A program made the position numbers and the translations under genes. The notes below the pieces were generated by a model. It searched no databases. It was not told the DNA's origin and was given only the letters and a program-made list of their open reading frames with translations. Shown in pieces: positions 2,178 through 46,451 of a stretch of DNA of 51,142 bases (positions within the stretch are counted from its first letter, which is position 1; every line of letters starts with the position of its first letter). Source of the DNA: Defluviitaleaceae bacterium. Lineage in GTDB: Bacteria; Bacillota; Clostridia; Lachnospirales; WQUN01. Location: contig WQSB01000001.1 in the NCBI GenBank assembly GCA_009788085.1, positions 1 through 51,142 on the forward strand. Reading direction: 5' to 3'.

Positions 2178-2271
2178 TGATAGAAAATATCACTATTCAA
2201 CAGGGGTTTTGCACAGCAGATATACAGAGCCGCGCTTCTGTTATTTTACAACAATTTCCGATAGAAATATC
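2178..2271. promoter_or_regulatory. Two GATA-n-TATC palindromes upstream of the HTH gene
   Basis: TGATAGAAAATATCA (2178-2192) and GATAGAAATATC (2260-2271) are near-identical short inverted repeats 68 nt apart, between the RT stop and the HTH promoter. Paired palindromes upstream of a small HTH gene are typical repressor operators; binding is inferred. Confidence 0.35.
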
Positions 2272-3361
2272 AATTTTTATCCTCGTTGTCGTCGCGCCGC
2301 AGAACAAAATCACCAAATATACGCTGCTTGAGCCGCAGGCTGTTGCAGTGGCTTAGGATGCCCAGGTACGATTGCACGGTAGAGTCTGCTTTCTTGAAAT
2401 CAATCTCGCCACGAGCATATTGTTTTTGGATATACGCCAGCCGCTTCTTCATCTTCAACGCAGAGGACTTCCGAAGTTTTATATGCGTAGGCCATACCTT
2501 GTACCCAAGAAAATCAATGCCGAGGGTGATGGGGCGGACGCAGGTTTTCTCGTTAAGTGAAAGATGGAGCTTTTTTTCGAGAAATTCTGCAATTTTATTC
2601 TTGAGCCGGTGCAGCTCCTCCTTGTCGTAGGACAATATGACAATATCGTCCATGTAGCGGATATAGTGCCTCACACCAAGTTCGCGCTTCACATATTGAT
2701 CCAGCTCGTTTAAGTAGATGTTGGCGAACATCTGACTCGTGAGGTTTCCGATGGGCATTCCCTTGTCGAAAAGCCGCTCGTCCGTTTCATGGGCAGCATA
2801 CCCATGTGGCAAGCCAAAGGCCGTGTCCTCGGACTTAATAATTTTTTCCATCAGCCACATTACATCCGGGTCGGCAATTTTGCGCCCGATGATTTCTAAT
2901 AAAATTTCGTGGTCGATTCGGTAAAAATATTTTGATATATCCAGCTTCAAATAGTAATACTTCATAGGGGCCTTGTTTACCATGCGTAGCCAATAACGTA
3001 ATCGCGCAATGGCAGAGAGCGTTCCGCGCTTTAATATACACCCGTGGCTGTCAGCAATGTATCCTTTGGCAAATATGGGATTGAGAACGCTATATGCAGC
3101 CCATTGCACGACACGGTCGCGGAAAGGCAAAGCCATGATGAGCCGGGTCTTGGGGTCATGTACATAAAATTCATGGTATCTGCCGACCTCGTATGATTTG
3201 TAGATGAGATGGTTTTGCAGGTCAATTAGATTTTCTTCGAGATTGGCAGAGAATTTTAAGACCTCATGCTTGTATCGCTTGCTTTCTTTGGCTTGATTGT
3301 ATGCGAACAAAAGCCGCTCAAAGTCGTAAATCTTCGGGAATAAATTTTTGATTCGCTTCAT
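2270..3361 (-). CDS. DGR reverse transcriptase
   Basis: Reverse transcriptase of a diversity-generating retroelement. It copies the TR RNA into cDNA with errors opposite adenines, and the cDNA then replaces the VRs. The 363 residues carry the RVT_1 order: LKLDISKYF with catalytic D141, motif 4 GMPIGNLTSQ at 201-210 (the IGNLTSQ form typical of DGR RTs, where group II intron RTs have QG...SP), YMDD at 236-239 with D238 and D239, and FLGYKVW at 284. No maturase, endonuclease or RNase H domain is present, as expected for DGR RTs. Its start overlaps the 72-aa ORF stop by 4 nt (ATGA). TR and avd lie upstream in the same direction. The identification is secure because matching TR and VRs are present. 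Confidence 0.97.
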   Translation of the reverse strand: MKRIKNLFPKIYDFERLLFAYNQAKESKRYKHEVLKFSANLEENLIDLQNHLIYKSYEVGRYHEFYVHDPKTRLIMALPFRDRVVQWAAYSVLNPIFAKGYIADSHGCILKRGTLSAIARLRYWLRMVNKAPMKYYYLKLDISKYFYRIDHEILLEIIGRKIADPDVMWLMEKIIKSEDTAFGLPHGYAAHETDERLFDKGMPIGNLTSQMFANIYLNELDQYVKRELGVRHYIRYMDDIVILSYDKEELHRLKNKIAEFLEKKLHLSLNEKTCVRPITLGIDFLGYKVWPTHIKLRKSSALKMKKRLAYIQKQYARGEIDFKKADSTVQSYLGILSHCNSLRLKQRIFGDFVLRRDDNEDKN

Positions 3362-3609: not shown

Positions 3610-3880
3610 GATTCGGGTCACCCCTATTACCGGCATACGCGGCTACATTGATTTTTTGCCTGCGGATTTCTCCGGGGCAAGGAAACGAATCCCTTTATCA
3701 CCAACTGTGCTGGATGCCAGCCCTTGAGCTGACAACTTCTGACTACGATGGCAAAGCGAGGCGAACGCCGACATTCGTATTCACGTTCCACGGCCAGTTG
3801 TTGCAATTGACAGCGCGGGCCCCAGCGTGAACACCATTGTTCCAGTTGCCACCGACGTTCAACGGACGACCCGTTCCCTA
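3610..3880 (-). ncRNA. DGR template RNA: TR plus structured spacer
   Basis: The non-coding stretch between the avd stop (3878-3880) and the 72-aa ORF holds the TR and about 145 nt of spacer. In BPP-1, TR plus downstream spacer form the RNA on which RT-Avd primes cDNA synthesis. Two stem-loops are visible on the minus strand. One at 3656-3680 has CGGA-GAAA-TCCG capped by a GNRA tetraloop inside an outer TTGCC/GGCAA stem. The other at 3709-3721 is GCTGG-CAT-CCAGC. The region has no ORF with a ribosome site. The exact RNA ends are not determinable. Confidence 0.65.
3754..3865 (-). repeat. DGR template repeat (TR)
   Basis: A 112-nt template. On the minus strand, in the VR reading frame, it would encode LNVGGNWNNGVHAGARAV then NCNNWPWNVNTNVGVRLA. 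It holds 22 adenines, 20 of them in ten AAY codons, which after adenine mutagenesis can give 15 amino acids and never a stop. VR1 differs at 17 positions and VR2 at 14; all 31 differences are at template adenines and no other base differs. The 3' end (GTCGGCGTTCGCCTCGCTT) is identical in all three copies and is the expected IMH-like anchor. The TR starts about 12 nt after the avd stop. Confidence 0.97.
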
Positions 3881-4243
3881 TGACCGAGCGGATTTATTCT
3901 TTTCAGAATTCATCCAGCCGCCAATCATCTTGCCAATCTCAACATTTCGCGCCGACCATTGTTCGTACTTTTTATTAGGAAGGAAGCCGAGCATGTTTGC
4001 CAGCCGGGTATAAGCCCGGAGCTTGGCCAGGGCAATGTCAAGGTTTTGCAGGGTAGTCTTTTTGTAATACTTCTTTTGCGCTTCGATGATATGCTCTAGC
4101 ATGATGTCCATGCACCGCTTGATGTCAGCCACCAGCGCGTACTTTTCCGCTTTGGGAAACTGCGCCAGTATTGGGTAGGCAAAGGTAATCATGTCGAAGG
4201 TCTTTTGCAATATAATTAAATCTTCTCCGTGTGGTTTCTCCAC
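3878..4243 (-). CDS. avd: DGR accessory protein Avd
   Basis: Avd-type accessory variability determinant, a basic four-helix-bundle protein that in known DGRs forms a pentamer, binds RT and template RNA, and is needed for retrohoming. The 121 residues show the family pattern: FDMITFAYPILAQFPKAEKY in helix 1, a long helix with MDIMLEHIIEAQKKYYKK, LRAYTRLANMLGFLPNKKY, then EIGKMIGGW near the end, with a lysine-rich surface. Start is GTG 4243, preceded by GGGGG at nine bases; no ATG offers a better start. It is the first gene of the DGR operon, about 17 nt from the predicted transcription start. The TR follows directly. Confidence 0.92.
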   Translation of the reverse strand: MEKPHGEDLIILQKTFDMITFAYPILAQFPKAEKYALVADIKRCMDIMLEHIIEAQKKYYKKTTLQNLDIALAKLRAYTRLANMLGFLPNKKYEQWSARNVEIGKMIGGWMNSEKNKSARS

Positions 4244-4367: not shown

Positions 4368-4391
4368 CACCCCCTGCTATCGCAGGGGGTG
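4368..4391 (-). promoter_or_regulatory. DGR target-recognition hairpin downstream of VR1
   Basis: A perfect 10-bp stem, CACCCCCTGC with GCAGGGGGTG, closed by a GATA tetraloop (GRNA type) on the coding strand. It begins 34 nt after the VR1 end. DGR hairpins or cruciforms of 7-10 bp with GRNA loops downstream of the VR are required for efficient retrohoming in BPP-1. A T-run starts five bases further on, so it may also terminate tail-fibre transcription. Confidence 0.85.
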
Positions 4392-4411: not shown

Positions 4412-5521
4412 TTACAAAGATTCACAAGCGAGGCGAACGCCGACATCCGAAGCCACGCGCCACGGCCAGAGGAGGCAAATGACAGCGCGGGCCCCAGCGT
4501 GAACACCATGGCGCCAGATGCCACCGACGCCCAACGCTACCAACTGCCGCGTAGCATTCATATGGGCTTGCCCCATACCTTCGCCTAATACATCATGCCA
4601 TGACCATGTTTGTTGAGCGGCTTCTTCACCCGTTGCGAGGTAACGTGATATAAATTCGTCAATCCACTCCCACACGTTGCCCGTGGTATCACGGCAACCC
4701 AGCGAAGAAACAGCGCGGTCAACCAACCCCGTATTGCGCCGGGCAGTGTTGGTGGTCTGCGACCATGCGTTAAGATTGTCAGCAGCATTGCCCTGCGGTG
4801 CGCCCATTGCGGCCTTGAGCCATTCAGAATGCGTAAGCATCCTCTTCCCGACCACGAAGGCGCGCTCGTTAAAGGCATACCAATGAAGCCCCTCCGTGCC
4901 TGTGAGGGGGATGGCGTTCTGTACGGATTGTAAGCCACCCGCGCCATCGTCAGAGGCGAGGTAAATATCTACCCATACATTGCCGCCGAGATACACCATG
5001 CCCTCCGGGGAACACGCCGGGCGATGCTTGAGCGTCCATACACTGGCGGGGATTATCCCGGTGAAGATGTTTGTTTCCCAGCCCGCGCCGTAGGCAACAC
5101 CTGCGGTGTTAATGGGGCGCATTTGTGCATCGCTACGGCGGCCAATACCCACATGGAAGCCGCCAATGCGCCGGGAATTAAATGCCGTGAAGCCTGCGGG
5201 GGCGGTGGCATTAAGCGAGATAAGATATACCTCGTCTTGATTGCTTCCGGGGTCGCACAGGTAAATATAGTAATCCGTGCCGGCAACAAAAGCCGAGCCG
5301 ATGTCGAGGTTGGCCGCGCTTAAATTGGTGAGGCTGGTTACGAAAAACGAGCCATTAAGCGTAACAGTAACGCCGGCATCTACCGCGAGGGCATTATCGC
5401 CTGTGGTGCGGATGAAGTCGCGCCGGGGGGCGACCACATCGGCGGCGGCCGTAAAGTTTTCTACCCGTATTCTTGCGCGGGGGTCTACCTTTAAGGGGTC
5501 GTTCACCATAAATCTAGGCAT
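4412..5521 (-). CDS. DGR-diversified tail fibre-like protein (C-type lectin/FGE fold), target 1
   Basis: Probable receptor-binding fibre tip, 369 residues. The N-terminal half (about 1-165) is a beta-rich fibre-type region after MPRFMVNDPLKVDPRARI. The C-terminal half is an FGE-sulfatase/C-type-lectin-like domain: MLTHSEWLKAAMG (about 230), GCRDTTGNVWEWIDEF (about 275), and the variable GG-W...GVHAGARAV...WPW...VGVRLA segment at 329-366. The last three residues after VR1 are ESL. It lies at the end of the tail operon beside the DGR, as Mtd does in BPP-1. GGAGG is present nine bases before ATG 5521, and the start overlaps the 190-aa gene by 8 nt. Variable residues lie on the ligand face of this fold in known DGR targets. 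Confidence 0.93.
   Translation of the reverse strand: MPRFMVNDPLKVDPRARIRVENFTAAADVVAPRRDFIRTTGDNALAVDAGVTVTLNGSFFVTSLTNLSAANLDIGSAFVAGTDYYIYLCDPGSNQDEVYLISLNATAPAGFTAFNSRRIGGFHVGIGRRSDAQMRPINTAGVAYGAGWETNIFTGIIPASVWTLKHRPACSPEGMVYLGGNVWVDIYLASDDGAGGLQSVQNAIPLTGTEGLHWYAFNERAFVVGKRMLTHSEWLKAAMGAPQGNAADNLNAWSQTTNTARRNTGLVDRAVSSLGCRDTTGNVWEWIDEFISRYLATGEEAAQQTWSWHDVLGEGMGQAHMNATRQLVALGVGGIWRHGVHAGARAVICLLWPWRVASDVGVRLACESL
4426..4536 (-). repeat. DGR variable repeat 1 (VR1)
   Basis: A 111-nt copy of the TR at the 3' end of the fibre gene (residues 329-366). It has 17 substitutions, all at TR adenines (for example AAC to CTC, CGC, GGC and ATC), with all non-adenine positions preserved. This pattern shows past mutagenic retrohoming. 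Adenine-site changes alter 10 of the 10 AAY codons plus the single ACG. Confidence 0.97.
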
Positions 5522-34755: not shown

Positions 34756-36066
34756 TCAAGGAGGATTAGGGGTAGTAATTGTCGCATGTAAACAATCAAT
34801 TTCACGGTACGGGGTAGTTTGGCCTCCCCGTTGCAGGGAAACGCGGTCGGGGGTGTTCGTCAGTTCAATATACCGGCGGACAATAACGTCGCAATATTTC
34901 GGGTCAAGTTCCATCAACCGGGCATCGCGCCCGGTTTGCTCGGCGGCGATTATTGTGGTACCCGAGCCCCCAAATGGGTCCAACACCACATCGTCGTGCC
35001 GGGAGCTGTTTAACAGGGCTTTGCCGACGAGAGCCACGGGCTTCATGGTGGGGTGTTCCGGGGAAACTTTGGGGCGCGGAATTTGCCACAGGTCGGATTG
35101 CTTCCTATCCGCCAGCGGGTAGAGCCGTTTGCCTTCGCGCCAGCCGTACCATAACGGCTCATACTGCGTATGATAATCCTTCCGAGAAAGGACGAGGCTG
35201 TCTTTTGCCCATATGATTGTGCTACTCCAATGGTACCCGGCTTGGCGCATGGCGTTCATAATATTGCCCCACTCCTGCGCACTCATCACGACGTAGGTCA
35301 TACAACCGGGCTCGGAAACGGTAGCCATTGCGTTAAATGCTGCCAATAAAAAAGCACCGAAGTCGTCGGTACTCATTTTGTCGTTCATTATTTGCCGGGG
35401 CTTCCAGCTGGGGTGCTTGGCATCTGAGCCATAATCCACATTCCACGGCGGGTCGGTGAATACGCACCGGGCAATCGTGCCGTCCATGAGGGTCTTTACC
35501 TCATCGGAAGAAGTGCTGTCGCCACACATAAGACGGTGGCGGCCAAGATACCATATGTCGCCGCGCTGCGAGATAGGCGTTTCAATTTCTGCGGCGGCTG
35601 CATCTGCATCGAAGTCGTCCTCTTGGACTCCGGGGTCGCCCCCATCAGCTTCGGCAAATAACTTGTTGAGTTCGTCAACATCGAAGCCCATGAGGTCAAT
35701 ATCGAAGTCCAGGGACTTCAGCTCCTCGATTTCCAAAGCCAGCATCTGTTCATCCCAGCCGGCACTCAAGGCCAGCCGATTGTCTGCCAGCACATACGCC
35801 TTTTTCTGCGTTTCGGTAAGATGCTCCACGAAAACGCACGGCACTTCGGTCAAATTTTCGGCCCGTGCTGCGACCACCCGGCCGTGGCCAGCGATGATGT
35901 TGTAATCCCGGTCTACGAGGACGGGGTTTACGAAGCCAAATTCCCGCAAGCTGGCGCGGAGCTGGTTTATCTGCTCGTCGCTGTGCGTCCGGGCATTTCG
36001 CGCATAGGGGATTAGCCTCTCAACAGCTACCCGCTCCATGCGCCCGGTCATTTCCCTACCATTCAT
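34756..36066 (-). CDS. ParB-like domain fused to DNA methyltransferase
   Basis: A 436-residue fusion. The N-terminal ParB/sulfiredoxin-like domain has VERLIPYARNARTHSDEQIN and the GHGR box at about 60-63. The C-terminal domain is an N4/N6-type DNA methyltransferase with the catalytic DPPW at 205-208 (VFTDPPWNVDYG), then HPTMKPVALVGKALLN and AdoMet-binding DPFGGSGTTIIAAEQTG near the end. Catalytic motif before AdoMet motif indicates the beta class. No restriction partner lies nearby, so it may protect phage DNA or control genes by methylation. It follows a strong terminator. Confidence 0.92.
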   Translation of the reverse strand: MNGREMTGRMERVAVERLIPYARNARTHSDEQINQLRASLREFGFVNPVLVDRDYNIIAGHGRVVAARAENLTEVPCVFVEHLTETQKKAYVLADNRLALSAGWDEQMLALEIEELKSLDFDIDLMGFDVDELNKLFAEADGGDPGVQEDDFDADAAAAEIETPISQRGDIWYLGRHRLMCGDSTSSDEVKTLMDGTIARCVFTDPPWNVDYGSDAKHPSWKPRQIMNDKMSTDDFGAFLLAAFNAMATVSEPGCMTYVVMSAQEWGNIMNAMRQAGYHWSSTIIWAKDSLVLSRKDYHTQYEPLWYGWREGKRLYPLADRKQSDLWQIPRPKVSPEHPTMKPVALVGKALLNSSRHDDVVLDPFGGSGTTIIAAEQTGRDARLMELDPKYCDVIVRRYIELTNTPDRVSLQRGGQTTPYREIDCLHATITTPNPP

Positions 36067-37309: not shown

Positions 37310-38110
37310 CTAACCGTCGTAGCATCCACAAGGGGCTCCACAAATGCACCCACCGGGGGCATCTTCAAAGTCAAACAATGTCATCTGCATATTCGTAGCT
37401 TTATAAAAATCCTCCCATGACCATTTTCTGCCCAATCCCTTGACAGTGATAAGCGTTGGCGCGGCTTTTCGCTCAATTTCGACGGCTCTGTTAAATAGTT
37501 CCGGGTATTGATGCCAAAGCTGTTTAATTTCATGTTTTTTCATGGACGGGCAAAAGAAACAACTTGATTTTCCGGGGAGCATAATCCCTTCATCCATTAT
37601 GACCTCGGCGCATTCATCCCGCGACCATCCCCAATCAAACAGCGGATAATGCACGATGTATTTTTTATTAACCTCATCATGCGGAATCGCGTGATTTACC
37701 CTCCTCGCTTCCCCGTAGTCATACCCAATGTACTTGTGGACCCTTTCGCCACTTGCCCAAATCTTTTTACATCTGATATGATTATTGCAATATTTATCCT
37801 GTGGGCTGATTTTGTGCTTGTGCGAACATTTTTTATATCCATATGCGATGGATGGCAGGGTATTAGAGCGTAAGCATTCATCTTCAAGGGTGAGACGTTT
37901 TCCGTCTTTTGTGTAATGACCAACCGGGGTTATCAACGGAAGCCCGCGCTCACAAAGCCATGAATTGAATACCTCAATAAACTCGTAGGTATAGGGCATT
38001 TCACTCCCCGTGTCTGCAAACAAGATGAGATCAATCGGAATATTTTTTTTGTACATACCAATTATCATTGCTGCGCTGTTTGTTCCTCCTCCAAATGAAA
38101 CCACATGCAC
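37310..38110 (-). CDS. PP-loop ATPase (PAPS reductase-like)
   Basis: A 266-residue protein of the adenine nucleotide alpha-hydrolase superfamily, PAPS reductase/DndC-like. The PP-loop is SFGGGTNSAAM (5-15), followed by IDLILFADTGSEMPYTYEFI. The C-terminal half has DEGIMLPGKSSCFFCPSMKK (CFFCP) and a Cys-rich tail (GGCICGAPCGCYDG) possibly binding a cluster or zinc. Family members activate substrates by adenylation for sulfur transfer, as in DNA phosphorothioation or base modification. Radical-SAM genes nearby make a nucleic-acid or cofactor modification role attractive, but the substrate cannot be read from sequence. Confidence 0.88.
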   Translation of the reverse strand: MHVVSFGGGTNSAAMIIGMYKKNIPIDLILFADTGSEMPYTYEFIEVFNSWLCERGLPLITPVGHYTKDGKRLTLEDECLRSNTLPSIAYGYKKCSHKHKISPQDKYCNNHIRCKKIWASGERVHKYIGYDYGEARRVNHAIPHDEVNKKYIVHYPLFDWGWSRDECAEVIMDEGIMLPGKSSCFFCPSMKKHEIKQLWHQYPELFNRAVEIERKAAPTLITVKGLGRKWSWEDFYKATNMQMTLFDFEDAPGGCICGAPCGCYDG

Positions 38111-39355: not shown

Positions 39356-40243
39356 TCACACCTTCCACGGGCATTGCTTGTGCGCATCTATATATTCAGC
39401 GCGTACATATTTTTGTAAGTTATCTTTTAAGAACACGGGTACCCCAGCGGCCTTGCAAGCATCTACAATGGCATATACCCATTCCGGCTTTGGAGTCGTG
39501 ATGGGGTTTCGTCCGGTTTCCGCGCCGACGATTACCCAACGTATCCCATGTGGATTGCCAAGACCGTCTAATTCGATGGGTCCGTGCAATGGCTCTAGCG
39601 ACACAAACGCATTGCATGGTTGCGCATAAAAATCAAGTCCATCAGCTTGCTTGTCGAATGAATCTTGATTGGTTGCCGATACACCAAACCACCAATTTCC
39701 GTGTTTTTTGCCCTTTGCAAGTAAATAGCTGAGGCAGTCATATCGCTGGGCATTTTTTGTAAGAAACAAATACCGATGTTGGGGAGCGGCTTCGCAAGCC
39801 CTAAACACCTGCTCGATCCATTCATCCGGCACCCAGCTTCCGAAGCCATCCGCCATGCTCCCAACAAATACATTCTGAGGGGTTTTTATTGTGGTTGGCT
39901 TGCGAAGGCGATAGCGATGGAGTGTTGGGATAAAGCCGAATGGATACGGGGCTTTCGTAATCTCACCTTTTTCTGTTTTGAAAGGTAACGGCTCTTCCAA
40001 GTCAAAAATGGGGTAATTTTTATCAGCAAGTGGGTGTATATATGCCTCATCCCCAGGTTGTAAAATTAATTCCCCCGGCCGACCGTGGGGGTTGTAACAG
40101 CACCCATTTGCGCGATGCCCCTCATGGAGGCAACCACGATAACGTCTTTGAAATTCATCTGCATAACAATACTCGCAATCGTGATAACAACCGGTGATAG
40201 GATTCCAAGTTCTGTCACACCAATCAATGTCGGTCTTATTCAT
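39356..40243 (-). CDS. Phage Gp37/Gp68 family protein (DUF5131), radical SAM-like
   Basis: A 295-residue DUF5131 protein. The N-terminus DWCDRTWNPITGC then HDCEYCYADEF carries a C-x3-C-x2-C cluster (C19, C23, C26) like radical SAM enzymes. Family-typical parts follow: TPQNVFVGSMADGFGSWVPD, RYLFLTKNAQRY, WFGVSATNQDSFDKQADGLD and PKPEWVYAIVDACKAAGVPV. ATG 40243 is used because it overlaps the preceding stop by 8 nt with AGGAGG ten bases upstream. Substrate unknown; the family is common in phages and mobile elements. Confidence 0.9.
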   Translation of the reverse strand: MNKTDIDWCDRTWNPITGCYHDCEYCYADEFQRRYRGCLHEGHRANGCCYNPHGRPGELILQPGDEAYIHPLADKNYPIFDLEEPLPFKTEKGEITKAPYPFGFIPTLHRYRLRKPTTIKTPQNVFVGSMADGFGSWVPDEWIEQVFRACEAAPQHRYLFLTKNAQRYDCLSYLLAKGKKHGNWWFGVSATNQDSFDKQADGLDFYAQPCNAFVSLEPLHGPIELDGLGNPHGIRWVIVGAETGRNPITTPKPEWVYAIVDACKAAGVPVFLKDNLQKYVRAEYIDAHKQCPWKV

Positions 40244-40490
40244 CGCACAAATACCTCCTAACAATCGCTTCCACTTTGGCGACCGTGGCCGCGCCGATGC
40301 CCTTTGTTGTTTTAAGCGAAAGGATTATTCGCTCGACGTTTTGCTCACCTGTGGGGCCGCTCGGCTTTGGGGGCGCAGTTTTTCGGTCGGCATATTCCAC
40401 CAGCTGGCGGTCAGTCATTTTGCGGAGCGTAACAGCGCGGTCATGGATGGCGCGTTCCTCCGGGGTGCGTCTACAATTTCGCTTTGCCAT
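40236..40490 (-). CDS. Small protein with helix-hairpin-helix-like end
   Basis: An 84-residue protein. Basic N-terminus (KRNCRRTPEERAIHDRAVTL), MTDRQLVEYADRK and a C-terminal TKGIGAATVAKVEAIVRRYL resembling a single HhH (GIGxxT...I) DNA-contact motif. Located between the two radical-SAM-type genes and overlapping both. Function unknown; a DNA-binding helper is possible. Confidence 0.65.
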   Translation of the reverse strand: MAKRNCRRTPEERAIHDRAVTLRKMTDRQLVEYADRKTAPPKPSGPTGEQNVERIILSLKTTKGIGAATVAKVEAIVRRYLCDE

Positions 40491-42001: not shown

Positions 42002-42244
42002 TTAACTGCCTCCATCCACAAGACCCAGTAACGCAGGAGCTTTGACCGTGTGTCCCATTTCATGGGCGGTTTTTATCACCTTCAGCTGGAAGCTCTCGCT
42101 GGCGATTATTTGGGCGGATATATCTGCAATAGCCCGGCCGCGCTCGATTACGGCAGTCAGCTCGTCGCCGGTGATGCTTTCGTCATCCAGCCTCTCCAGC
42201 TGTGCGTAAAGATAATTTTTCAAATCGGGTATTTTATTTTTCAT
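42002..42244 (-). CDS. Small unknown protein, 80 aa
   Basis: An 80-residue helical protein (DLKNYLYAQLERLDDESITG, then VIERGRAIADISAQIIASES) of a kind common in clostridial phages. ATG 42244 has AAAGGAG about eight bases before it. A longer frame exists to 42436 but reads antiframe through VR2 and is rejected. Its ribosome site starts right after the VR2 hairpin, so hairpin folding could affect translation. Function unknown. Confidence 0.75.
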   Translation of the reverse strand: MKNKIPDLKNYLYAQLERLDDESITGDELTAVIERGRAIADISAQIIASESFQLKVIKTAHEMGHTVKAPALLGLVDGGS

Positions 42245-42263: not shown

Positions 42264-42285
42264 CCCCTGCGCTTCCGCGCAGGGG
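42264..42285 (-). promoter_or_regulatory. DGR target-recognition hairpin downstream of VR2
   Basis: A perfect 9-bp stem CCCCTGCGC/GCGCAGGGG with a GGAA tetraloop (GRNA type) on the coding strand, 35 nt after VR2. No T tract follows, so it is not a terminator. It shares the CCCCTGC start with the VR1 hairpin and the same distance to the repeat, the signature of the DGR cruciform element. Confidence 0.87.
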
Positions 42286-42297
42286 AGCAGCACACAG

Positions 42298-43227
42298 TTA
42301 GGCAGATTTCAGTTTTACAAAAGCGAGGCGAACGCCGACAGACGTAGACACGAGCCACGGCCAGGCGTCGCAAGAGACAGCGCGGGCCCCAGCGTGAACA
42401 CCATTGTGCCAGTGGCCACCGACGCTCAACGGCCATTCGCCCTCGTTATTCAGCCAAACGTGGCCGACATTTTTATCCGATACAGGCACCATGCCAATGG
42501 CCTTCAGCCTCGACACCACCTCAGCATCGACAGCAGGGTCAACCGTGATTTCATGAAACCAGCCGCTTATGAAATCGCGCTTTACGAGGTCTGCGGGGAC
42601 GAGTACGAGCTTGCCCTCACGCGATACAAATCCTACTCCGAGGCTCACCCACCCATCGTCCGAATTTATCGCTGCATCGTTATTGGGGATGACATGGATG
42701 ATGCCGTTGACCAGCTTTAGCCCGGCGCACATTTCGAATATATTTCCGCAAAGGTCATACACGCCGTCCTCCGTGTGATCGTGTGACCATGTAACCGGGC
42801 CGGAGCCAGTGAGGATATCGCAGTCATCATAGGTAAGTCCGCGCTCGGTTTCGTCGCCGTGATATTTGCCGTTGTTGGTATTGCCGTGGGGAATGCTGCC
42901 GAGCCTTTGACAAATTAATGCCAGCAGTGCCATTTCCGCGTTTGTGGCCATGTGCCAGCCAGGGCCTTTGGCGGCGCAAGCATCGGCCGCGTCTTTGAAG
43001 GTGATTTCCGTGGTCGCCTTTTGGTAAGGCAAGCTGTAGGCGCGGTCGTTATAAATTGCGGCCGCGTATTTTCCGATGTACAGCTCCTCCACTTCTTGGC
43101 CGTTTACGAAAAAGGCATCGTGAAGCGCATCGCTGTCGGCGCATTTCAATTCGTGCAAAGTGGCCTTATTTATACGCACCATGTAATCAGTGCCGCCATG
43201 CTGGTCGTTCATTTTTACAGTGTTCAT
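42298..43227 (-). CDS. DGR-diversified C-type lectin/FGE-fold protein, remote target 2
   Basis: A 309-residue protein ending in VR2 (residues 266-303) and the tail FVKLKSA. The FGE/formylglycine-enzyme-like fold is visible: VEELYIGKYAAAIYNDRAYS, GPGWHMATNAEMALLALICQ, EDGVYDLCGNIFEMCAGLKL, and the final SVGGHWHNGVHAGARAV ... VGVRLA. Unlike target 1 it has no fibre domain, signal peptide or membrane helix; the first 50 residues are a short beta-type extension (YMVRINKATLHELKCADSDA). It lies in the early region between DUF1064/ParB genes and small genes, with TTAGGAGG before ATG 43227. Where and to what it binds is unknown. Confidence 0.93.
   Translation of the reverse strand: MNTVKMNDQHGGTDYMVRINKATLHELKCADSDALHDAFFVNGQEVEELYIGKYAAAIYNDRAYSLPYQKATTEITFKDAADACAAKGPGWHMATNAEMALLALICQRLGSIPHGNTNNGKYHGDETERGLTYDDCDILTGSGPVTWSHDHTEDGVYDLCGNIFEMCAGLKLVNGIIHVIPNNDAAINSDDGWVSLGVGFVSREGKLVLVPADLVKRDFISGWFHEITVDPAVDAEVVSRLKAIGMVPVSDKNVGHVWLNNEGEWPLSVGGHWHNGVHAGARAVSCDAWPWLVSTSVGVRLAFVKLKSA
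42321..42432 (-). repeat. DGR variable repeat 2 (VR2)
   Basis: A 112-nt copy of the TR at the 3' end of the remote target gene. It has 14 substitutions versus TR, all at template adenines, including AAT to TCT three times and AAC to CTC, GAC, GCC and CAC. Eight template adenines are retained. Homology ends match the TR at both sides, with the GCTTT end one base longer than in VR1. Confidence 0.97.
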
Positions 43228-43236
43228 AGTGTCCTC

Positions 43237-43593
43237 CTAATTTTTTATGAGCCGTAGTTCGAGCCACGGATATTGTGCCTCCCACAGCTTTTTCTTGATT
43301 TTGAATTCCTTTGTTTCCATGCCCTTCACGTCCTCGACCCACACCGTGCCGTCCATATCGCAGACCATGAAGTCGGGTCGGTAGCGGATGCCACCGGGCA
43401 GAGTAAATGACGGCTGAAGCATGAAGCCCTTGATTTCCCCGGCTTGCCGGAGCATTTTTAATTCACCATATCTCCGCGCCTCTGCCCGGCTGTCGAAATT
43501 AATGCCATCAACCTCGGTTTTTATATTTCGATACTTGGACGGCTTGGTGGCCTTCTTTACGAGCTGGCGATATTGTTCCGGCGTTACCCTCAT
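43237..43593 (-). CDS. DUF1064 nuclease-like protein
   Basis: A 118-residue DUF1064 protein, a phage restriction-endonuclease-fold or Holliday-junction-resolvase-like family. Motifs: KYRNIKTEVDGINFDSRAEA (FDS.aEA), LQPSFTLPGGIRYRPDFMVC (P.F.L..g.rYr.DF) and VWVEDVKGMETKEFKIKKKL (vEDvKG..T..f..K), giving the E-D-ExK catalytic set. It overlaps the ParB gene by 4 nt. Likely acts in phage DNA recombination or processing. Confidence 0.9.
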   Translation of the reverse strand: MRVTPEQYRQLVKKATKPSKYRNIKTEVDGINFDSRAEARRYGELKMLRQAGEIKGFMLQPSFTLPGGIRYRPDFMVCDMDGTVWVEDVKGMETKEFKIKKKLWEAQYPWLELRLIKN

Positions 43594-44921
43594 GCCGCCT
43601 CGCCTTCGGCCAGCAGAAGTTCGTGGGTACCGTTGCGCAGAGCCAGCTCCTCGTCCGACATTTCGTAACCGATGCTGATGAGGAAGTCGTAAATACGGTC
43701 AAGCTCCTCATTTTCCGTGTGGACACACTTGTAATCGTGGTAGCTCCAATCGTCATCGTCCATGCCGTTTATATAGGCGGAGATGAACATTGCCTTTTCC
43801 GGGGCTTCGGCTATTTTCCCGGCAATTAGAACGTCATCGTTTTCGGAATCGTCCTTGCTGAATATAATTCCAGTCATCAGCGCGAAGTCGTTTTTAATAT
43901 TCCACACATGCTTTTTTTGCAAAATTGAGTGTGCAATAAATGCCATGACTTGGGAGCTGTGGTTTTTGGGTGAAAATTCTTTAACAAACTTCCGGCGCAA
44001 TTCATAGGCGCGATTCGCAAGTGCATCGAGCTGGTCGCTGCGAGACCGACGACGCGCTTCCTCTTCGGCTTTTTCATTGCTGGCCGAAGTTTCTGTATCG
44101 GGGATTTCGCGGAGTAGTTTGATGTGACCTCCGTCGTCATGGAAGAAATATTTAACTGTGTCAAGGTCGGTGGGAAGGGTGCGCGCTGTATCCACATACA
44201 TCCAGCGAAGGATGCGGCAGTTGTCGCCAATATCGTCCTCGTCCTCGATTTCCACGGCAAAGGTTTTGAGCCAGTCAAGAAGCTCCACACGCTTCTCGGC
44301 ATTCTTTTCTTTGTCCGTGGCCGTCTTTAGCGTCCACTTGAAATTGGGTGTACCGATGGAATCCAGTACCTCGTTTTTCAAATCGGGGTCGTTGACTTTG
44401 TCCAGCTCGGCATAATCCGCAATGGTCGCGCCGCGCATCTCGGCGGCCTTAAATTTTTCTTTGTCGAGGGCGAGGAGTTTTACCCGGCTACGGACGGTGG
44501 TCTGTGAAAAGCCCGTCTTGTCGGATATGGTCATGATTGTTTCGCCGTAGTCCAGCAATAGCTGCATACCTTGAGCCTGTTCATACTTGGTTAGGTCGTT
44601 TCGTTGCATGTTTTCCAGCAACATGGTCGCCACCTGCGTAGACTCATCCATTACGACGACGGCACACATTACCTCAGTAAGTCCGGCTTGCCTCGCGGCT
44701 GCGGAGCGGCGATGACCAATGATGACGGTGTAATCGCCTTCGTATTTTTTCTTTTGACCGAGGCGTTTTGCGTACTGTTCCGGGTCTTTGGGTACCACGG
44801 TGAGATTTTGCAAAACCCCTGTTGCTTTGATGCTGTCGGCCAGCTCAGACAGATCCCCTAAGTCCGAGCGCGGGTTGTTGGGATGCGGAAATATCCGCTC
44901 CAATTCGATGTTCTGCAGCAT
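43590..44921 (-). CDS. ParB/Spo0J-family partition-like protein
   Basis: A 443-residue ParB. The N-terminal CTPase/ParB domain has IFPHPNNPRSDLGDLSELAD, the box GHRRSAAARQAG and LLENMQRNDLTKYEQAQGMQ, followed by the HTH (MTISDKTGFSQTTVRSRVKL). The long C-terminal region (about 200-443) is helical and acidic without known domain. No parA is next to it, so in phages it may act in replication, gene regulation or as a nuclease-like ParB rather than segregation. Overlaps DUF1064 start by 4 nt. Confidence 0.92.
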   Translation of the reverse strand: MLQNIELERIFPHPNNPRSDLGDLSELADSIKATGVLQNLTVVPKDPEQYAKRLGQKKKYEGDYTVIIGHRRSAAARQAGLTEVMCAVVVMDESTQVATMLLENMQRNDLTKYEQAQGMQLLLDYGETIMTISDKTGFSQTTVRSRVKLLALDKEKFKAAEMRGATIADYAELDKVNDPDLKNEVLDSIGTPNFKWTLKTATDKEKNAEKRVELLDWLKTFAVEIEDEDDIGDNCRILRWMYVDTARTLPTDLDTVKYFFHDDGGHIKLLREIPDTETSASNEKAEEEARRRSRSDQLDALANRAYELRRKFVKEFSPKNHSSQVMAFIAHSILQKKHVWNIKNDFALMTGIIFSKDDSENDDVLIAGKIAEAPEKAMFISAYINGMDDDDWSYHDYKCVHTENEELDRIYDFLISIGYEMSDEELALRNGTHELLLAEGEAA

Positions 44922-44923
44922 GG

Positions 44924-45478
44924 TTAATCCTCCTTGTTTCTGTAGTTATCACACTTGCGCCGAAAATATGCCGGCACCTTCGGGTTGCCGTATGCGCAGT
45001 AGAGATACTTGATTTGGATGCCACTGTGATACTTTGACTGCTCAAGCTCGGGGTGTGAATTTTCACACGTTCCGCAACACTCCTCGCCGGGGTCAAAATT
45101 GCCGAGCATTTGTTGCATATTTGCAAGGTGTAGGTCGTGGTTTTTTCGCTCAATAATAATTTTTTCAGCAAGGCCAACAATCTGCCCCGGTGAAGGAAAA
45201 AAACCTTTACGGTCGTCTTTAATAAATTTTGCGACCGCCGCATGGATTATCTCCGGCTCTATTCCCATCAGAGCCTCTGCCCATACCATTGCGGTGTTGG
45301 TGGCGGTTTCCACTGATGCGCTTTGTGATTGCACCGGGAATGCGTAGCGGAGCTTTAACAGCTCAACCGTTACGAGAGCCTCGTATTGATAAATTTGCCG
45401 TATTTTTTGCGGGTCAATTATTTCCCCGTAAAAAGCCTGTTGTGGCACCGACAAAGCGGTTATTTCAGCTGGAGGCAT
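44924..45478 (-). CDS. Probable helicase loader (SPP1 G39P-like)
   Basis: A 184-residue protein with VWAEALMGIEPEIIHAAVAK and FIKDDRKGFFPSPGQIVGLA, the WA..L.......AV..f.....ffPspg.I..l pattern of G39P-type helicase loaders. The C-terminus has a Cys-rich part (CCGTCENSHPEL ... YLYCAYGNPKVP and CDNY) that may bind zinc. ATG 45478 is chosen for GGAGG and its 14-nt overlap with the initiator gene end. Context with a DnaD-like initiator supports loading of the host replicative helicase. Confidence 0.75.
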   Translation of the reverse strand: MPPAEITALSVPQQAFYGEIIDPQKIRQIYQYEALVTVELLKLRYAFPVQSQSASVETATNTAMVWAEALMGIEPEIIHAAVAKFIKDDRKGFFPSPGQIVGLAEKIIIERKNHDLHLANMQQMLGNFDPGEECCGTCENSHPELEQSKYHSGIQIKYLYCAYGNPKVPAYFRRKCDNYRNKED

Positions 45479-46451
45479 ATTTTCTCGCCTCCTCCACGGC
45501 GCGCATGGCATTTTCGGCAAAGCCATCTACCTTTGGGGGCGGTGTGCCACTCCTCGCGCCATAGGTTTGTTTTTGCGCTTTCTTGATGCGGTGCAGTTCT
45601 TCTGCCCGAAGAAAAGCGTCCATGTTTAAAATCTTTTCCATCACGCAGCGGTCAAGGATTTTCTTGGCGTAGTTCCAATTTGCCGCACCGTTTTCGTGGC
45701 TCCGATCCATTGCGAGGCAGATAACATCCTCGGCAATTCCGCAGTTTAGGTAATCCCGAAGCTCCTCCAGCACCATTGGGCGCATAATTCCAAATAGGCG
45801 TTCGTAATGCTTCACCGGGCTCGTGGGGCTAAATCCAGTTTGTGCGGGGTTTGTGCGGGTGTTTGCGTCGGTTATTCCGTCACAAGCATTTTGTGCGGGG
45901 TTTTGCGACGGAATTTCCGGCACATTATCAGTAGTAGGAGGTAGAAGATGATTAAGTAACTCTCTCGTATCTGTGTAACTACTACTACTCTTATTACTAA
46001 TAGGCGGTTTAACCGACGCAAAACTTCCGTTTTCTTCGTTTGTGGCGTTTATTCCGTCACAAGTTGGGTTGCGCGGACTTTGTGCGGGTGCTTGTGCGGG
46101 GTTTGTGCGGGTGTTTGCGTCGGTTATTCCGTCGCTAATTATTTGTGTCGGATAAAACGACACAACGGAGTAAACTGCGGATGCCCTCCCACTTCGTTGC
46201 CGCCAAATAATGCGACCGAGCTGTTGAAGGCGGTTTCGTGCGTCGCCAATAGCGTCTTTTTTTAGTCCTGTTTTACCCTCAAGGGTTGACATGGCTACTG
46301 CAAACTCTTCCGGACATCCTGCCTTGTGCCATGTGTGCATCAAGGCAAGCCATAGGCATATACATGATGTTCCCATACAGTTTGTTTCGAGCCAGTCGTA
46401 AAAGGCTAAAATCTCAGCCGTTAGGCGTTCATTGTTAACGGTCCATTTCAA
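45465..46451 (-). CDS. DnaD-like replication initiator
   Basis: A 328-residue initiator. The N-terminal winged-helix region (1-95) has LKKDAIGDARNRLQQLGRII; a long disordered Asn/Thr/Pro/Ser linker with repeated ITDANTRTNPAQ units (107 and 190 region) follows; the C-terminal DnaB_2/DnaD-type motif is YLNCGIAEDVICLAMDRSHE then NWNYAKKILDRCVMEKILN. It would melt or recruit at the origin, which in such phages often lies within the initiator gene. The linker DNA holds the iteron-like repeats described separately. Confidence 0.85.
   Translation of the reverse strand: MKWTVNNERLTAEILAFYDWLETNCMGTSCICLWLALMHTWHKAGCPEEFAVAMSTLEGKTGLKKDAIGDARNRLQQLGRIIWRQRSGRASAVYSVVSFYPTQIISDGITDANTRTNPAQAPAQSPRNPTCDGINATNEENGSFASVKPPISNKSSSSYTDTRELLNHLLPPTTDNVPEIPSQNPAQNACDGITDANTRTNPAQTGFSPTSPVKHYERLFGIMRPMVLEELRDYLNCGIAEDVICLAMDRSHENGAANWNYAKKILDRCVMEKILNMDAFLRAEELHRIKKAQKQTYGARSGTPPPKVDGFAENAMRAVEEARKYASS
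45840..45881. repeat. 42-bp direct repeat A inside the initiator gene
   Basis: This 42-bp unit is repeated exactly at 46092-46133, 252 bp away. Each contains two TTTGTGCGGG-like decamers and TTATTCCGTC. A further TTGTGCGGGG lies at 45891-45900, and TTATTCCGTCACAAG recurs at 45872-45886 and 46049-46063. Confidence 0.85.
46092..46133. repeat. 42-bp direct repeat B inside the initiator gene
   Basis: Exact second copy of the repeat at 45840-45881. One more TTTGTGCGGG lies just before it at 46080-46089, giving at least six iteron-like decamers over 300 bp. An AT-richer tract (about 45950-46010) lies between copies. The perfect inverted repeat TTGTGTCG/CGACACAA follows at 46143-46165. Confidence 0.85.
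46143..46165. repeat. Perfect inverted repeat next to the iterons
   Basis: TTGTGTCG-gataaaa-CGACACAA: two perfect 8-bp arms around 7 bp, 10 bp from repeat B. It could form part of an origin or an initiator binding site. Confidence 0.6.

Follow-up and report, generated by a model that had tools for sequence, protein, structure and literature searches.

Hypermutation in phages is read almost wholly as tail tuning. A second, distal DGR target in Quimbyvirus was proposed to be non-structural by Benler et al. 2021 (PMC8008677). The second VR of Faecalibacterium phage Lagaffe was noted in a 2024 study of Faecalibacterium prophages (PMC11792537); both products, gp26 and gp40, were treated as receptor binders and the early location was left undiscussed (PMC5883640, PMC11792537). 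A 2025 Nature paper (PMC12629997) pointed out four prophages in which a second, distal VR lies near methyltransferase genes. In LM41phi3, a Clostridium clostridioforme prophage, two phrog 2889 genes, both labelled host metabolism, were reported together with Avd and RT (PMC11318856); on account of this combination, LM41phi3 is probably another unrecognised two-target case. The largest metagenome survey used a method that is, by its own statement, blind to targets far from the RT (PMC8144416). Given Quimbyvirus (PMC8008677), Lagaffe (PMC11792537) and the four gut prophages (PMC12629997), the term 'undescribed system', used in a first-pass annotation of the locus presented here, is too strong. 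The early lineage described below, its spread, the concerted evolution of TR and VR and the selection test were not found in the literature searched (subscription papers and preprints excluded).

The window, i.e. the whole stretch of 51,142 nt that was analysed, is contig 1 of a 229-contig, 2.9-Mb assembly. IMG/VR contig 3300027864_001019 (57,979 bp) contains the whole window with 0 mismatches, and its extra ~7 kb carry a repressor-like gene and an integrase on the opposite strand. The phage, which is contractile-tailed, is therefore temperate. Following the direction of transcription, the gene order is integrase (opposite strand), RecT, ParB, VR2 gene, terminase, portal, sheath, tape measure, baseplate J, Mtd-like VR1 gene, RT and lysis.

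The window DGR is complete, with RT, Avd and an RT-14 RNA beside the TR, all on the minus strand. The reverse transcriptase (2270..3361) matches RVT_1 (2.2e-23) and phrog_1423 (9e-142), and Avd (3878..4243) matches bAvd PF22296 (3.2e-30). The RT-14 RNA (Rfam RF02921; 3597..3756; 68.3 bits, gathering 48.1) lies directly 3' of the TR (3753..3865), which was assigned to both targets by repeat alignment to VR1 and VR2. The first target (4412..5521, minus strand) is Mtd-like (mtd_2nd, 2.5e-28, plus FGE-sulfatase), stands at the end of the contractile-tail module and also matches tail protein phrog_11262 (4.8e-68). Its VR1 (4426..4536, minus strand, 111 nt) carries 17 mismatches, all at TR adenines.

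The second target gene (42298..43227, minus strand) encodes a 309-aa protein of TaqVP-like C-type-lectin/FGE fold. It matches phrog_2889 (E 1.6e-79), a family without annotated function, and the profile covers residues 2-305, the whole length. VR2 (42320..42432, minus strand) aligned gap-free to the TR, differing at 14 of 113 nt. Every one of these differences falls at a TR adenine, 14 of the TR's 22 As being changed; with slightly longer ends, A accounts for 14 changes and other bases for 1 (p = 1.1e-9 versus TR A content). On the linear prophage map, TR and VR2 are separated by 38.4 kb. The significant BLASTP alignment between the VR1 and VR2 proteins is confined to the VR (69% over 36 residues), and the VR stretch of the VR2 protein alone also matches the Mtd-like family phrog_11262. 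This VR is 70% identical to VR1, compared with 34-35% on average and 48% at maximum for the VRs of its own family. It follows that the template of an Mtd-like system overwrote the VR of a TaqVP-like protein, and this template swap is direct evidence of past homing at the remote site. In the comparison of window VR2 itself with near-identical genomes, the sole relative found was the identical contig 3300027864_001019.

In the PDB, the closest structure to an AlphaFold model of the VR2 protein (pLDDT 94.2, pTM 0.93) was TaqVP (5vf4; Z 43.9, 32% identity and rmsd 1.6 across 300 residues). TaqVP belongs to a Thermus aquaticus prophage DGR and is described as monomeric with one domain (PMC6328139). 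TvpA (Z 14.5) and Mtd (Z 12.9) have the same fold, with TaqVP far closer. The VR2 protein has no Pfam match and lacks the second (beta-sandwich) domain of Mtd, whereas the VR1 protein has one. Neither a fibre or other structural domain nor a signal or membrane segment was found in its 309 aa, the top 19-aa hydropathy being 1.39.

Around the VR2 gene, all genes lie on the minus strand. A ParB-like gene (43590..44921) is followed by a DUF1064 / Holliday-junction-resolvase-like gene (43237..43593), which is separated by 9 nt from the VR2 gene downstream of it. Just downstream of the latter is a small Gp157-like / phrog_2044 early gene (42002..42244; start codon by eye), followed by HNH and radical SAM genes, with the terminase downstream; the ParB-like, DUF1064 and Gp157-like genes were assigned by profile matches. 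Promoter and terminator scans gave results at chance level, and the VR2 protein matched no PADLOC model. The first-pass annotation, made from the letters alone, had described a second target about 38 kb away that fits the same TR by adenine changes, with a C-type-lectin/FGE fold, without fibre, signal or membrane part, and placed in the early region. The 14/14 mismatches at A, the measured distance, the model, the hydropathy and the gene order before the terminase agree with this description in each respect.

Some further features of the window were recorded. A DUF5131-like gene (phrog_2045; 39356-40264) matches the PADLOC candidate models PDC-M41B and PDC-M30B, and relatives of this gene lie within five ORFs of the early target in 6 loci. 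A PAPS-reductase-like gene (37310-38110) matches the PADLOC SspD model (2.8e-21) and is, judged from this gene alone, a candidate of phosphorothioation type. The region 34756-36066 combines a ParB-like domain with a type II-like DNA methyltransferase. The replication-protein ORF 45465-46451 contains a direct repeat of 56 nt, its two copies (45840-45895 and 46092-46147) being 89% alike.

In 17 other phages, one TR writes both a DGR-adjacent tail target and a second, remote target located in the early/replication region. These were Lagaffe, Dulem virus 37 and 15 IMG/VR contigs; together with the window, 18 genomes were tested, partly non-independent because of the close pairs G102/G119, G121/G122 and G114/G116. 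IMG/VR scans and a search of 32 contigs showed two full copies in 17 contigs, counting that of the window, and a TR was present in 15 of the others. In both Dulem virus 37 and Lagaffe, one phrog_2889 gene lies beside Avd and RT and another is remote, before or within the early genes, that of Dulem virus 37 sitting between lysis genes and integrase. The remote copies of both fit the TR by adenine changes, with 5 other differences in Dulem virus 37. When the VRs of the 18 genomes were compared with their own TR, the near VRs showed 252 adenine and 35 other differences and the remote VRs 226 and 52, at TR-to-remote-VR distances of 4.3 to 79 kb. Non-adenine divergence from the own TR was 1.2% for near and 2.1% for early VRs, versus an average of 27% between the TRs of different phages; the remote VR thus evolves in concert with its own TR. 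Mutated states of VR1 and VR2 showed no significant association (odds ratio 1.19, p = 0.40), on which ground the VR2 protein was rejected as a matched decoy of the tail protein. At doubly mutated positions, the same base was observed in 46% versus 38% expected (p = 0.055), and there may be a weak link between VR1 and VR2 contents.

Homing in BPP-1 needs a downstream hairpin with a GC-rich stem of 7-10 bp and a GRNA loop (PMC3240598). The hairpin downstream of VR2 (42264..42285, minus strand; CCCCTGCGC-GGAA-GCGCAGGGG, loop GGAA) is a BPP-1-type target element conforming to this rule, and a BPP-1-type hairpin also lies downstream of VR1 (4368..4391, minus strand; CACCCCCTGC-GATA-GCAGGGGGTG). GC-rich stems of 7 bp or more, most of them closed by a GNNA loop, lie downstream of 30/43 near VRs, 23/44 early VRs and 3/17 TRs. 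Just after VR2, five CTG triplets with 7-8 nt spacing were read from the sequence (42280..42312, minus strand), the last one within the hairpin. Such a row sits between VR and hairpin at near and early VRs alike, including after window VR1, with a mean of 3.6-3.8 CTG triplets per 60 nt after VRs versus 1.2 after TRs. Possibly, the row is an unrecognised cis element of homing; no description of it was met in the literature, consulted without a dedicated search.

A maximum-likelihood tree of 66 proteins was built without the VR columns. A single branch parts 26 early from 36 tail copies (support 100/98); this split was recovered in 200/200 bootstrap trees and corresponds to one change versus a mean of 20 after shuffling. 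The window VR2 protein forms a long branch, yet groups within the early sets. Relocation of a tail gene in this genome alone is rejected by the tree, the early copies being one lineage. Such relocation just here, or a fibre domain fused to the protein in related phages, had been named beforehand as evidence against a non-tail role; neither was found, and the early copies constitute one old lineage. Scanning bacterial genomes brought in 50 further genes of the early lineage, nearly all in Bacillota. None of these 50 lies within 5 kb of an RT, compared with 25 of 33 tail-lineage genes within 3 kb. Both kinds were present in 21 of 23 host genomes searched, in 18 of them on the same contig (coordinates read by eye); the 2/23 without a DGR partner include G145, whose early gene has an in-frame stop.

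Early copies in 73 related loci were never found in an intact tail module. Structural-gene matches within five ORFs were obtained for 2/73 early loci versus 11/12 near loci; one of the two is a weak match, the other a deletion derivative. The derivative (L191, Gemmiger sp. An50) was rejected as a tail-module early copy: one long ORF follows, which presumably starts like a DNA cytosine methyltransferase, judged from its opening residues, and ends in a tail-gene match. At L191 12097-13623, a prophage deletion has fused the apparent early methyltransferase to a tail ORF, and the early target now lies beside the DGR. Neighbours of the early targets include SSB, ParB, ERF, DnaC, exonuclease and replication initiator genes, with ParB-like genes within five ORFs in 9/73 loci. 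MazF-like genes were noted at the same range in 14/73. One constant partner gene was rejected, the commonest neighbour cluster occurring in 16/73 loci, and no defence family was found either.

The tail copies share a short N-terminal segment (such as MANFDLSxLALKS or MxNFDDMKLAVEALSGG), which the early copies lack. In the window, G097 and the Lagaffe core, the latter begin directly with the core; others carry a divergent extension at the N-terminus, poorly modelled in IMG/VR relatives, and those of the Lagaffe group have a C-terminal extension after the VR. For the extensions at either terminus, no Pfam family scored above the cut-off, and a membrane-like segment was found in 0/68 early proteins.

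Ongoing diversification was followed in four pairs of early genes. Outside the VR, these differ at 0/819, 0/1035, 3/1287 and 3/1032 positions (0-0.3%); inside the VR, in the same order, at 16/99, 17/99, 16/99 and 19/99 (16-19%). For three early pairs with known TR (two 0%, one 2% apart), 11/16, 15/17 and 15/16 of the VR differences fall at TR adenines. The L038/L042 early genes show the reverse of the usual pattern, with identical VRs and 53 differences outside, perhaps through VR transfer or a fixed useful variant. Median dN/dS outside the VR was 0.25 for early genes (54 non-independent pairs) and 0.12 for tail genes (21 pairs). The early gene body is under purifying selection, and reading frames are intact in nearly all early copies. 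The early target is thus an old, conserved, actively hypermutated, separately evolving and probably non-virion protein of the early region.

The following course of events is proposed. RT and Avd would copy TR RNA into adenine-mutagenised cDNA, which would overwrite two 3' ends, that of the Mtd-like tail target (VR1) and that of the remote early gene (VR2), the downstream hairpin marking each VR as target. The remote gene product would be a soluble, single-domain TaqVP-like C-type-lectin protein and not a tail part. Acting inside the infected or lysogenised cell, it would bind host molecules differing from strain to strain, with defence or takeover targets as the likeliest. Early timing, cytosolic action, absence from virions and such a ligand are what we infer for the VR2 protein. 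That the DGR writes two proteins, of which the VR2 protein is a non-virion intracellular binder of variable host molecules, is given a probability of about 0.58. This reading best explains the A-specific VR2 mismatches, the TR fit in 18 phages, the lineage split, the VR-only variation and the dN/dS of 0.25, as well as the replication neighbours, the missing tail-type N-terminal and membrane segments and the unassociated VR1 and VR2. Since the second protein has been kept by dozens of related viruses as a separate old lineage and is still randomised, it probably binds something variable in the host cell. Several points were counted against a non-virion use. An early location does not prove it, the divergent N-terminal extension of many early copies could be a virion anchor, and neither a partner gene nor a defence family was found. 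To our knowledge, the known phage functions of the C-type-lectin/FGE fold are receptor binding. The position of the Dulem virus 37 remote copy would allow late or lysogenic expression.

The main rival is a second virion receptor-binding or adhesion protein encoded outside the tail module, so that the phage would have two independently diversified receptor binders, as proposed for Lagaffe. It has the fold of Mtd and TaqVP on its side; beyond the early lineage, the nearest relatives are tail genes next to the DGR, annotated as antireceptors, and doubled receptor binding was favoured for Lagaffe by the authors of PMC11792537. It is nevertheless considered unlikely, since the early copies form a lineage apart that occupies a setting of its own in all intact genomes, lack the tail-type N-terminal segment, and have no structural gene within five ORFs bar one deletion derivative and one weak match, while VR1 and VR2 are not significantly associated. 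A protein of the lysogeny or lysis stage, made from the prophage or freed at lysis, might instead block receptors (superinfection exclusion) or coat debris. The phages being temperate with integrase, and the Dulem virus 37 gene lying between lysis genes and integrase, would suit such a role, which is judged quite improbable: most copies are housed in the replication region, a signal or membrane segment occurs in 0/68 early proteins, and a matched decoy would require VR contents that follow the tail target's, which they do not. Least credible, and very improbable, is a functionless passenger, a relocated duplicate still edited by the DGR through homology. VR and cis elements do suffice for editing (PMC3240598), and the early copy of G145, a host genome without DGR partner, has its in-frame stop; purifying selection (dN/dS ~0.25), intact frames in nearly all copies and one old lineage across many hosts argue against it.

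More widely, an old lineage of binders, early, intracellular and DGR-hypermutated, may be common to temperate phages of Bacillota; written from the same template as the tail protein, these would retarget variable host factors such as defence proteins. This is advanced tentatively, at somewhat short of even odds. If such diversified early proteins are widespread, on-demand evolution in phages would extend to the inside of the cell. The question is testable in cultured lysogens (Faecalibacterium A2-165, carrying Lagaffe, Blautia sp. MSJ-19 and Desulfosporosinus acididurans M1).

Compared with known systems, the VR2 protein is structurally closest to TaqVP (5vf4, PMC6328139), sharing its monomeric single-domain FGE-type C-type-lectin fold; the TaqVP gene lies inside the DGR cassette and its product has ~18 extra N-terminal residues, whereas the VR2 gene is remote. 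Mtd of Bordetella phage BPP-1 is likewise a DGR target with a C-type-lectin fold and follows the downstream hairpin rule. The window VR1 protein is Mtd-like, but the VR2 protein lacks the Mtd second domain and is encoded far from the tail genes. The comparison with the formylglycine-generating enzyme covered the fold. Tentaclin two-target DGRs (PMC10743442) similarly serve two C-type-lectin proteins from one TR, although both targets lie in the cassette and the families are different. Quimbyvirus (PMC8008677), like the window, has one tail-side target and a distal C-type-lectin target, the latter near nucleases and methyltransferases; these differ in being Bacteroidota phages, in the opposite strand and in a frameshifted RT, and are likened to the early lineage by description. 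The gut prophages (PMC12629997), of which four induced species carry another VR at a distance from the RT and near counter-defence genes, are covered there by one sentence and maps and are likened to the window by layout. Lagaffe gp26/gp40 (PMC5883640, PMC11792537) have the same two-target layout and families, and gp40 falls within the early lineage; it differs from the window VR2 protein by its C-terminal extension.
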